Positions 36,232 through 39,900 of a DNA stretch of 64,000 nt are shown here, piece after piece. A program made the position numbers and the translations under genes. Positions within the stretch are counted from its first letter, which is position 1; every line of letters begins with the position of its first letter. This stretch comes from Chlorobiaceae bacterium (lineage in GTDB: Bacteria; Bacteroidota; Chlorobiia; Chlorobiales; Chlorobiaceae). The notes beneath the pieces were generated by a model. That model was not told the DNA's origin. It did no database searches and saw only the letters and a list, made by a program, of their open reading frames with translations. The stretch is from positions 38,209 to 102,208 of the forward strand of contig JAAXXL010000001.1 in NCBI GenBank assembly GCA_013334485.1, in the 5' to 3' direction.

Positions 36232-36561
36232 TCATGCAATATGCAGATCCATTTTCTTCGAAATCTGGTTTTTCGGTACAGCTCCGAGTAACTGGTCAAC
36301 AACCTGTCCGTTCTTGAATATAAGCAGACTCGGGATACTTCTGATACCAAATTGGGCTGCTGTAGCAGGGTTCTCATCAACATTGAGTTTTGCTACAACT
36401 GCCTTTCCGGCATACTCTGCGGCAAGTTCCTCAATAACTGGACCAAGCATCATGCAAGGACCACACCAGGTAGCCCAGAAATCAACCAGAGCAACCTGAC
36501 CAGAATCAAGGATTTCGGATTTGAAATTCTTGTCTGTTGCTGCAACATAGTTATCGCTCAT
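36232..36561 (-). CDS. trxA: Thioredoxin
   Basis: A 109-residue thioredoxin with the active site 'WATWCGPCMML' (about 31-41), the cis-proline region 'RSIPSLLIF' and the usual 'GKAVVAKLNVDENP' strand. It supplies reducing power for ribonucleotide reductase, peroxiredoxins and other enzymes. It is upstream of trxB on the minus strand. Confidence 0.96.
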   Translation of the reverse strand: MSDNYVAATDKNFKSEILDSGQVALVDFWATWCGPCMMLGPVIEELAAEYAGKAVVAKLNVDENPATAAQFGIRSIPSLLIFKNGQVVDQLLGAVPKNQISKKMDLHIA

Positions 36562-36836: not shown

Positions 36837-36995
36837 TCAGGAGTGTCCGCCGACAACAATACGCATGATTTTAACATTAAGTACGACAAACCGGACAAGC
36901 TGCCACAAAACATTTTTCCGCCAATACAGTGTTGTTTTTGAGGGTACCGGAGGGTAGGCCTCATCATAATATGCCTTGACTTTATTGGTGCTCAT
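36837..36995 (-). CDS. Small conserved-looking protein of 52 residues (absent from the ORF track)
   Basis: The minus strand from ATG 36993-36995 to TGA 36837-36839 encodes 52 residues starting 'MSTNKVKAYYDEAYPPVP'. The middle has 'TLYWRKNVLWQLVRFVVLN' and the end is 'IMRIVVGGHS'. The composition is protein-like: a short polar start, an aromatic/basic amphipathic middle and a hydrophobic C-terminal half that could lie on a membrane. I do not recognise the family. No strong ribosome site is seen. It lies between sqr and trxA on the same strand. Confidence 0.6.
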   Translation of the reverse strand: MSTNKVKAYYDEAYPPVPSKTTLYWRKNVLWQLVRFVVLNVKIMRIVVGGHS

Positions 36996-37086
36996 TGTAT
37001 TCAGTATTTAACGTTATTACGCCTTATAGTGTAAGGGTTTAGGTGCGTCCCTGAAAGACTCGGCACTTAACACCTCACAATGTTAT

Positions 37087-37154
37087 GTCATCTCGAACGC
37101 AGAGAGAGATCTCCTGTCACAAAAAGCAGATCCCTCCTTTCAGTTCGGGATGAC
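37087..37154. repeat. Repeat family A copy 2
   Basis: GTCATCTCGAACGC at one end and CAGTTCGGGATGAC at the other, with 'AGAGAGATCTC' and 'AGATCCCTCC' inside. It lies upstream of the 52-residue gene and downstream of sqr. Confidence 0.85.
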
Positions 37155-37246
37155 ACCACCGCCAACTCATCCCTCGTCACTCTTCATCCCCTTCTCTTCC
37201 TTTCGTGACTTTCGTGGCCAAAAAACTTCCTCTTCAACTCATCACT

Positions 37247-38701
37247 TTATTCAGGAATAAGCCACCAGAACGGATATCCCTTTGCCTTGTGAAAGAAGAG
37301 GTAGTGCAGTATCACTTTGAGCCAGTGGCCGGCAAGACCAGCCTCACCAAGGGAGTAGTTCATGTCACGGCCCCACTCAGGGTATTTTTCCCAGTCAGGC
37401 ACAACAGGAAAAAGAGTCATTGAGGCGCCAAGTCCATCAAATGAACCAAAACCTGCCGATACAACGCATGCCGCGCCCATTCTGCTCATGGATGCTTTAT
37501 GACGGTGTTCCGTGGCTCCCTGTATTTTCTCGGCAATATTCAGCGCAACGATTTTCCCCATAACACCGGCAGGCATTCCAGTTCGAGGGGCGGTCGGGAA
37601 TATCTGACGACCGGTAGGGCTCGACATCGGCTTTGAAATCGGGTGGGGCGGAGCAAAAGCAATCCCCGGAGCATAGATGTTTTTATAGAGCGGGTTCTGA
37701 TAAATTGATGGCCAGTCATTAGCTGCCCAATCGTCAAAGGGCTTGCCGGAGTAGTCTGCATCGACTTTCATGAACTTGTTCGGGGCAAACATTTTTTCGG
37801 TAATATCATTGCCCTCCCTGTCATAAGAGGTAAGTCCAACCCCTGAAAATGAAGGAATGAGCATGGCAAAATCAAACTCCTGGGTGAGGTTTTCACCATC
37901 AAGCGTCTCATAGTAGGCCTTACCGGGTTCAACCTTGTAGACACCTGCTCTTCTGATCCAGTTAATGCCGTACTCGGCCATAATTGATTCGGTGAATACC
38001 TTTGTCGGAGTATAGTAGCCGCCCCGGTTGATGAACGCGCCGGCCATTCCGAAATCACCAAGCTCATACTCATTTGACAGCCAGGTAATCTGCGCTTTAT
38101 CACTCAGACCGAGTTTTGATATTTCGTGGGCAACATTCAGAATATATTCAAATGCCGCACCCTGGCAGGTTGCCATGGCATGACCGGTACCAATCAGAAT
38201 CCGCTGCTTCTCGCCGGCCTGCATTTTTTTGATGATCTTCTGAAGGTTCTCCCAGGCATGCGCTGCATGACTGTATGTGCAAACCGAAAAGGTATTTTTA
38301 TCAGGGCCGAGACCTTCGGTAGCGTCAAAATTGAGCTTTGGGCCCGTTGCATTGACAAGGTAATCGTAATCGACTTTCTCGATCTGACCGGCGTGCTGCT
38401 CATCGGTATACTCAATGGTAACGTACCCTTTTGAGATTTCATGATCGCCCTCAGGGTGAATTTCTATCGCTTTGGCCTGCTTTCGGATAATTCCCCAGCG
38501 ACCATACACTTTTTTCAGCTCAAACCGGACATCGTCAATCGACATTCTTCCGACGCCAACCCAGATGTTTGAGGGAATCCACTGGTAGTATGCGTTCGGA
38601 GTAACAACGACAACTTCATGCTGCTTTCCGAGTTTCTTTTTGAGAAAGGCTGCACAGGTATGACCTGCAACACCGGCCCCTAAAACGACAACTTTTGCCA
38701 T
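37247..38701 (-). CDS. sqr: Sulfide:quinone oxidoreductase family flavoprotein
   Basis: A 484-residue FAD protein that oxidises sulfide and passes electrons to quinone, a main electron source for green sulfur bacteria. The FAD motif 'VVVLGAGVAGHTCAAFL' is at the N-terminus. Candidate redox cysteines lie in 'AMATCQGAA' (about 186) and 'MGAACVVSAG' (about 412). The C-terminal 'WLKVILHYLFFHKAKG' helix fits membrane attachment. The start at 38701 ('MAKVVVLG') is chosen because the 26 earlier track residues lie in repeat-like sequence. The genus has several SQR types and I cannot assign the subtype. It follows a DUF2892 gene. Confidence 0.85.
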   Translation of the reverse strand: MAKVVVLGAGVAGHTCAAFLKKKLGKQHEVVVVTPNAYYQWIPSNIWVGVGRMSIDDVRFELKKVYGRWGIIRKQAKAIEIHPEGDHEISKGYVTIEYTDEQHAGQIEKVDYDYLVNATGPKLNFDATEGLGPDKNTFSVCTYSHAAHAWENLQKIIKKMQAGEKQRILIGTGHAMATCQGAAFEYILNVAHEISKLGLSDKAQITWLSNEYELGDFGMAGAFINRGGYYTPTKVFTESIMAEYGINWIRRAGVYKVEPGKAYYETLDGENLTQEFDFAMLIPSFSGVGLTSYDREGNDITEKMFAPNKFMKVDADYSGKPFDDWAANDWPSIYQNPLYKNIYAPGIAFAPPHPISKPMSSPTGRQIFPTAPRTGMPAGVMGKIVALNIAEKIQGATEHRHKASMSRMGAACVVSAGFGSFDGLGASMTLFPVVPDWEKYPEWGRDMNYSLGEAGLAGHWLKVILHYLFFHKAKGYPFWWLIPE

Positions 38702-38779: not shown

Positions 38780-38983
38780 TTAAATGAAAGCCTGACCCGG
38801 CTCAACACCAGCGGCTTTGAGAATTTTCGCAAGGGGGCAGAAACCGGTGAATGCAGCCTGAAAAAGATTGAGGCCAACAAAGCCGGTAAACCACAGCCAG
38901 TTCTGATTGTGATAGATTGAAAGCAGGACACTTGAAAACACAAACAAGCCCGCAACCGCAAAGACAAGACGATCCATATTCAT
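38780..38983 (-). CDS. DUF2892-type small membrane protein
   Basis: A 67-residue protein from the ATG at 38983 (GTG at 38992 in the track). Two hydrophobic segments, '[18 protein letters not shown]' and '[20 protein letters not shown]', are followed by the conserved '[13 protein letters not shown]' motif of the DUF2892 family, often found beside rhodaneses and sulfur-oxidation genes. It lies 78 bp upstream of sqr on the same strand, which fits a role in sulfide metabolism. Its biochemical role is unknown. Confidence 0.82.
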
Positions 38984-39438
38984 AGGAAGCACTCCGGTGA
39001 TTGATATAAACTCTCTTTCAGAAAGAGCCAGTAACTTGTTCCAATACAGTACTTTTTATCATTGAAACACGCAGTAGTGACTCGGAAATCAATGTAAATC
39101 CGATAAATCACCCTACTTATTGGCATATGCTAATAATAAAAAATAAAAAGCATTGAACAAACAGATAAGCCTGTAATTCTTTCGGGGGCGTCTCCGAACG
39201 GGTGAGGAAGATGAAAAAAAATGTGCCGAGTTAAAGAGGAGATTACGGAGTAGGGGTTAGAAGGGGGAAAAGTGGACGCGAGCGTGGACAGGGAAATGGT
39301 GGACGGAAGTGGACAAGAGAAAGGGATTTCTCGGGGGCTACCGATACTCCGCCACTGCGGAACTGAAGATCTTCATTTTTCGTGTGATTTCGTGTGATTC
39401 GTGGTTGAAAATCTTCTCTGTCCAATTTCAAAATCTCT
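38984..39438. other. Intergenic region with repeat debris
   Basis: A 455-bp stretch between the DUF2892 and DUF134 genes. The left part, near 39000-39180, is AT-rich. The right part has several 'GTGGAC' words (39270-39320) and a 'TTCGTGTGATTTCGTGTGATTC' type segment followed by 'AAAATCTTCTCT' (39378-39420), which is a member of the repeat debris also seen near 24780, 37200, 44100 and 51930. No credible gene. Confidence 0.5.
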
Positions 39439-39900
39439 TCAAACTTCGGAGAAGCATCCGCCCTTGCGTTTCAGAGAGATGCCGCATTGAGCACAGGTGT
39501 TCTCCCGGCAGGGTTCACCCTTCAGATGGGGTACCTCATGGCCGCACCCCGGGCAGACACAAATGTCCGGCCGTTCAGTCGGCAGCGAGTCACAGAGGTG
39601 GCTGACAAAACCGCCTTCAATACAGAGCCCTTTTCCTTCAACAAGTGCCTCTGCAACTTTTTTATGGGCCGACTCAAGGATACGGCCAAATGTCTGGCGG
39701 GAGACATTCATCCGTTCAGCAGCTTCAACCTGGTATAATCCCTCGCTGTCAGCCAATCGTATGGCCTCAAATTCATCAACGGCAAGAACCACACTTTCCA
39801 GACTTTCACAGGGCACTCCATCAGGCCTGAAACAGGTGATCTTTGGAAGATCCTTAACACTCCGGCAGTTTACAGGTCTGCCAACACGTCTTTTCTTCAT
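39439..39900 (-). CDS. DUF134-family HTH protein with C-terminal zinc-ribbon-like cysteines
   Basis: A 153-residue protein starting 'MKKRRVGRPVNCR' at 39900. The DUF134 domain (about 1-95) contains a sigma-70 region 4-like helix-turn-helix, 'LYQVEAAERMNVSRQTFGRIL', and is predicted to bind DNA. The C-terminal part has paired cysteines ('CVCPGCGHEV', 'CAQCGISLKRKGGC') that could bind zinc or iron. DUF134 genes often neighbour NifX/NifB-type or Mrp-type iron-sulfur genes; none is adjacent here. Confidence 0.85.
   Translation of the reverse strand: MKKRRVGRPVNCRSVKDLPKITCFRPDGVPCESLESVVLAVDEFEAIRLADSEGLYQVEAAERMNVSRQTFGRILESAHKKVAEALVEGKGLCIEGGFVSHLCDSLPTERPDICVCPGCGHEVPHLKGEPCRENTCAQCGISLKRKGGCFSEV

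Follow-up and report, generated by a model that had tools for sequence, protein, structure and literature searches.

The window (the whole stretch of 64,000 nucleotides that was analysed) was found to contain a gene for a sulfide:quinone oxidoreductase (SQR) which is followed on the same strand by a very short gene. The features of this locus are as follows:

36837..36995, minus strand: small gene encoding 52 aa, proposed as a dedicated partner or subunit of the upstream SQR (intact ORF, low dN/dS, third-position variation, homologue after every intact SQR of the clade)
36849..36911, minus strand: amphipathic helix core of the small protein, codons 29–49 (alignments, AlphaFold2 model, hydrophobic moment)
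37086..37155, given without strand: palindromic dispersed repeat of about 70 bp in the gap between sqr and the small gene (genome matches, hairpin)
37247..38701, minus strand: sqr, encoding a 484-aa SQR probably of the type IV (SqrD) clade (phmmer to 3sz0/3hyv, catalytic Cys, Foldseek)
38780..38992, minus strand: gene for a YgaP-like transmembrane protein (PF11127), immediately upstream of sqr (Pfam)

The small gene occupies an intact minus-strand frame of 52 codons running from ATG to TGA (36837–36995; product MSTNKVKAYYDEAYPPVPSKTTLYWRKNVLWQLVRFVVLNVKIMRIVVGGHS) and is placed between trxA (36232–36561, minus) and sqr (37247–38701 from its conserved start, minus). An ORF of 52 codons is by length alone unremarkable; it is conservation that takes this one far beyond chance. 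Homologues at E ≤ 1e-15 and without internal stops were identified in about 23–24 of 41 genomes (its own and 40 relatives), with identities of 67–94% in the relatives and with some copies truncated at contig ends, while 79 further loci came from scanning a large collection of genomes. Against relatives with usable dS, the dN/dS of the gene was 0.01–0.12. The pN/pS in its frame was 0.14 with no stops in the homologues, compared with 0.34–4.6 and 79–242 stops for the five other frames, and the mean minor-allele fraction was 0.06, 0.02, and 0.30 for codon positions 1, 2, and 3, respectively. As judged from these sequence comparisons, 36837–36995 (minus) is certainly a real coding gene under strong purifying selection, because the frame is conserved intact, the selection is specific to it and the variation falls mostly at third positions. 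An unlisted 52-residue gene had been claimed at this position in the earlier note, which named a related frame in close relatives and synonymous-biased substitution as the checks to be made; the gene was confirmed and both of these signs were found.

The listed sqr ORF reaches upstream to 38779, with homologues of its product beginning at MAKVVVLGAG. The window SQR was matched by phmmer to 3sz0 (E 5e-35), and a Foldseek search with its model returned SQRs as the top matches, the best being the SQR of At. ferrooxidans (TM 0.74/0.85). Residues C141, C179, and C412 are invariant in the SQRs of the clade and align with the cysteines of 3hyv and 3sz0, the three catalytic Cys of type I/IV SQRs being kept in the window enzyme. 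It is probably a member of the type IV (SqrD) clade and a likely orthologue of CT0117 of Chlorobaculum tepidum. A homologue is found in genome G134 at 112.4 kb with the small gene directly after it, and this pair sits where CT0117 of C. tepidum TLS is presumably to be expected. CT0117 is a well-studied type IV SQR (PMC4584964). In the part of that paper which cites Chan 2009, it is described as constitutively expressed and as supporting growth at 2–4 mM sulfide (PMC4584964).

Known SQRs have been described in a recent paper as single-subunit flavoproteins (PMC10892978). Most of them have two C-terminal amphipathic helices in the domain for membrane and quinone binding, and a type VI SQR, which has a single C-terminal helix, remains membrane-bound without that helix (PMC9666304). 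The AlphaFold2 model of the window SQR has one helix (residues 456–473) after C412, a helix count which is provisional as modelled, the pLDDT being 51–57 around residues 410–430. All 151 SQRs of the clade that were measured end 71–73 residues past the last catalytic Cys, a stretch only slightly shorter than the 78–83 residues that follow the catalytic Cys in the crystallised type I SQRs, and the apparent lack of a second helix in the clade enzyme is thus provisional rather than certain. No type IV SQR was among the solved structures found.

The pairing of the two genes was surveyed in 687 sampled genomes (297 of Bacteroidota, 189 of Myxococcota, and 201 of Chloroflexota), which were searched for both the small protein and SQR with coordinates matched by script; the SQRs counted are the intact genes of the clade, at least 39% identical. 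All 102 such genes were found to have a homologue of the small protein on the same strand, no more than about 280 nt further downstream (84/84 in Bacteroidota/Chlorobi, 9/9 in Myxococcota, and 9/9 in Chloroflexota). The 297 Bacteroidota genomes hold 87 SQR places, 84 of which have the small gene downstream; of the three unpaired ones, two are fragments at contig ends and the third is a distant SQR. SQR matches lacking the small gene are either contig-end fragments or distant SQRs of a shorter kind at 27–35% identity. Matches to the small protein lacking sqr consist of six contig-edge copies, a decayed fragment at G016:C37 and a single weak match at L179. The 19 divergent Bacteroidota matches that were checked adjoin SQRs of 39–65% identity, those checked in Myxococcota and Chloroflexota all lie beside SQRs with one exception, and an SQR gene of ~485 codons was located upstream on the same strand at all fetched loci whose upstream sequence was long enough. 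On plasmids of Sulfurovum, Thiodictyon and Marivivens, SQRs are likewise followed by "hypothetical proteins" of 52–53 aa with the conserved core, these cases being one example each (Campylobacterota, Pseudomonadota) and not a survey of a phylum. A second SQR clade (39–43% identity) keeps the pairing with a small protein that is shortened to 38 aa and has the same core. That the small protein is obligately partnered with a single SQR clade in several phyla is well supported at the level of sequence.

Some loci merit separate description. SQRs of the second clade with their own 38-aa small protein are found at L138, L139, and L148–L151, all of the same genus, and some genomes carry both clades. 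Several genomes of the same genus (G024, G220, and G234) have two sqr–small gene pairs each, at separate places. The decayed fragment (L147:2061–2171, corresponding to G016:C37:85263–85319; YWRKKQLWQIVRFVVLNY) has no sqr and is apparently the remnant of a lost second copy. The weak match of Chloroflexota (L179:2363–2551, genome G575; WQLVRFVWINFKMIDMI) is an orphan core match whose surroundings, out to about 2.4 kb, contain no SQR. Natural fusions of SQR and the small protein were also considered and rejected, as the long open frames that surround certain GC-rich homologues do not arise by read-through from SQR; the SQR near these homologues lies in another frame and has its own stop.

The distance from sqr to the small gene has a median of 38 nt and a range of 23–251 nt, the window having the longest gap, with about 210 nt added in its species. 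The repeat at 37086–37155 lies in this gap and folds as a strong hairpin (z = -4.1); it has 57 matches in its own genome, some of which are both strands of one copy, corresponding to dozens of copies. The hairpin in the 251-nt gap could weaken the co-transcription of sqr and the small gene in the window species. The YgaP-like gene, counting that of the window, is present at 20 of the 83 loci and is an optional neighbour outside the core pair. A gene for a DUF134 (PF02001) protein (39439–39888 of the window, minus) is found near sqr in 12 loci, often together with OsmC-like and methyltransferase-like genes, this neighbourhood being conserved in part of the genus. The downstream side of the small gene is variable between loci.

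Proteins of the small family are 38–58 residues long and share the conserved core Q-x2-[RK]-[FY]-x2-[LI]-[NS]-x-[KR]. Across phyla only the C-terminal half is kept, in which a hydrophobic stretch, often also basic, comes after the core. In the alignments Q32 is invariant, with F36, L39, N40, and K42 nearly so. AlphaFold2 predicted helices at residues 20–27 and 29–49, the latter at a pLDDT of about 90, and a poorly ordered N-terminal third; a conserved YYDEAYPPxP segment in the N-terminal part is limited to the longer proteins and missing in those of 38 aa. For helix 29–49 the hydrophobic moment is 0.43. Because four polar or charged residues are conserved within it and its maximum 19-residue mean hydrophobicity is 0.36, it is, as modelled, a cationic, amphipathic helix of the membrane surface, and a transmembrane protein was rejected as the helix is too polar. 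The aromatic/basic amphipathic middle that had been read from this protein at first sight is retained, whereas its description as a membrane protein holds only in the sense of a surface helix. Alignment of the homologues revealed no conserved cysteine, for which reason a role as sulfur or electron carrier is unlikely.

No known curated family for the small protein was recovered above threshold. Searches of Pfam gave no family for the window protein and a single PsaO_TMD match (E 0.013) for one of 39 members, the best NCBIfam score was 13 bits, where the cut-off is 375, and the best PDB match was at E 0.37. Some homologues have already been listed by annotation pipelines as hypothetical proteins. 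The literature searched held no description of a small SQR partner, prior mention being possible in subscription papers, which mostly lay outside the search.

We lean toward the view that the small protein is a dedicated partner of the type IV (SqrD-clade) SQR, to which it contributes in trans an amphipathic helix located by the quinone entrance and the membrane face. The small gene is probably carried on the sqr transcript. Beyond the gene, its strict partnership and its predicted helix, we infer a physical contact, its place and a role in quinone access: the C-terminal helix would lie on the membrane face and pack against the C-terminal membrane-binding domain of the SQR, providing in trans what in most other SQRs is a second, in-chain amphipathic helix. 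The small protein may in this way help the SQR to seat on the membrane and may contribute to the wall around the quinone entrance. Speaking against this reading are the low model confidence around SQR residues 410–430, the near-normal length of the stretch after the catalytic Cys, the type VI SQR that stays on the membrane without its single helix, and the gap with its hairpin in the window species.

An unlikely alternative is that of an assembly or insertion factor, acting as a transient chaperone while FAD is loaded or the SQR is delivered to the membrane, and not retained in the finished SQR. The strict one-to-one pairing and the operon position fit such a factor as well as they fit a subunit, and the loose N-terminal third with its YYDEAYPPxP segment could be a docking tail. 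However, the core is an amphipathic helix with no folded chaperone domain, and since the 38-aa forms lack the N-terminal motif the helix alone must suffice.

Several small membrane proteins tune transporters and kinases. The small size and membrane-surface helix would suit a regulator which adjusts the activity, turnover or quinone exchange of SQR to conditions, and, with a gene of its own, its level could be controlled independently of that of the enzyme. Such a regulator is nonetheless rather improbable, as the gene is invariably present whatever the phylum or lifestyle, and each time in cis downstream of sqr, which suggests a structural need over optional control. Either an assembly factor or a regulator would produce the same genomic pattern as a subunit.

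The position of the small gene between sqr and trxA in the window could also suggest a stand-alone membrane protein with a thiol/thioredoxin or general membrane function that came to lie beside sqr by chance. This is very improbable, as all intact loci have sqr for a neighbour (the matches without it being the contig-edge copies, the decayed fragment and the weak match given above), and as trxA occupies that place in the window only, with thioredoxin-like genes of 41–42% identity near three other loci among 83. Of the accessory role in sulfide oxidation proposed in the earlier note, the association with sqr therefore stands (102 of 102 intact clade SQRs), whereas the link to trxA was discarded as not conserved. 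A conserved RNA element of the sqr transcript, either 3′ untranslated or regulatory, to which the position just downstream of sqr would be suited, can be dismissed as having a negligible probability, given the frame-specific purifying selection with variation at third positions, the lack of any Rfam match and the retention of the amino-acid core by homologues in other phyla even though their DNA is GC-rich and fully diverged.

Returning to the dedicated partner of SQR, a bolder form of this reading is put forward tentatively, its chances being judged slightly below even: this widespread clade of SQRs may be an obligate two-component enzyme whose second helix is a separate subunit of 38–58 residues that lines the quinone entrance and was overlooked for its size. 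Held just as tentatively, the second helix would in that case have become separate or would always have been so, in a clade that is probably the main sulfide oxidiser of green sulfur bacteria.

SQR passes electrons from sulfide to photosynthesis and respiration in many bacteria. If the enzyme needs its small partner, sqr expressed alone would be expected to yield an enzyme that is poor or unstable, and both genes should be covered whenever sqr is knocked out or transferred. The short core motif also offers a ready marker by which this SQR clade can be separated from others in genomes and metagenomes. If true, the proposed arrangement would be a case of a membrane-seating helix provided by a separate gene.

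The window SQR appears to belong to the same clade as the known type IV SQRs (SqrD; CT0117 of C. tepidum and Alvin_2145 of Allochromatium vinosum), for which, unlike the window pair, no small partner was mentioned in the papers found. In A. vinosum, Alvin_1196 and Alvin_1197, downstream of the type VI SqrF, have been suggested to serve in the membrane attachment of SqrF and are absent in Thiocapsa bogorovii (PMC10892978). They resemble the small gene in lying directly downstream of an SQR and in their proposed membrane-holding role, a likeness of description; however, they accompany a different SQR type and, because of their absence in T. bogorovii, are not obligate. Another small protein of a quinone-linked membrane enzyme is CydX of cytochrome bd, an operon-encoded protein of 30–50 residues which was long overlooked for its size and which binds as a transmembrane helix to an integral membrane complex. 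The small gene is CydX-like in that it adjoins and co-occurs with its enzyme gene, whereas its predicted helix is amphipathic and SQR is monotopic, so that the likeness is one of kind with no homology claimed. The same role in membrane seating and in the quinone channel is proposed for the amphipathic helices at the C-terminus of type I/III SQRs (At. ferrooxidans, Aquifex, and Caldivirga); these helices are part of the SQR chain, whereas that of the present clade would be the product of a separate gene, the likeness again being one of proposed role.
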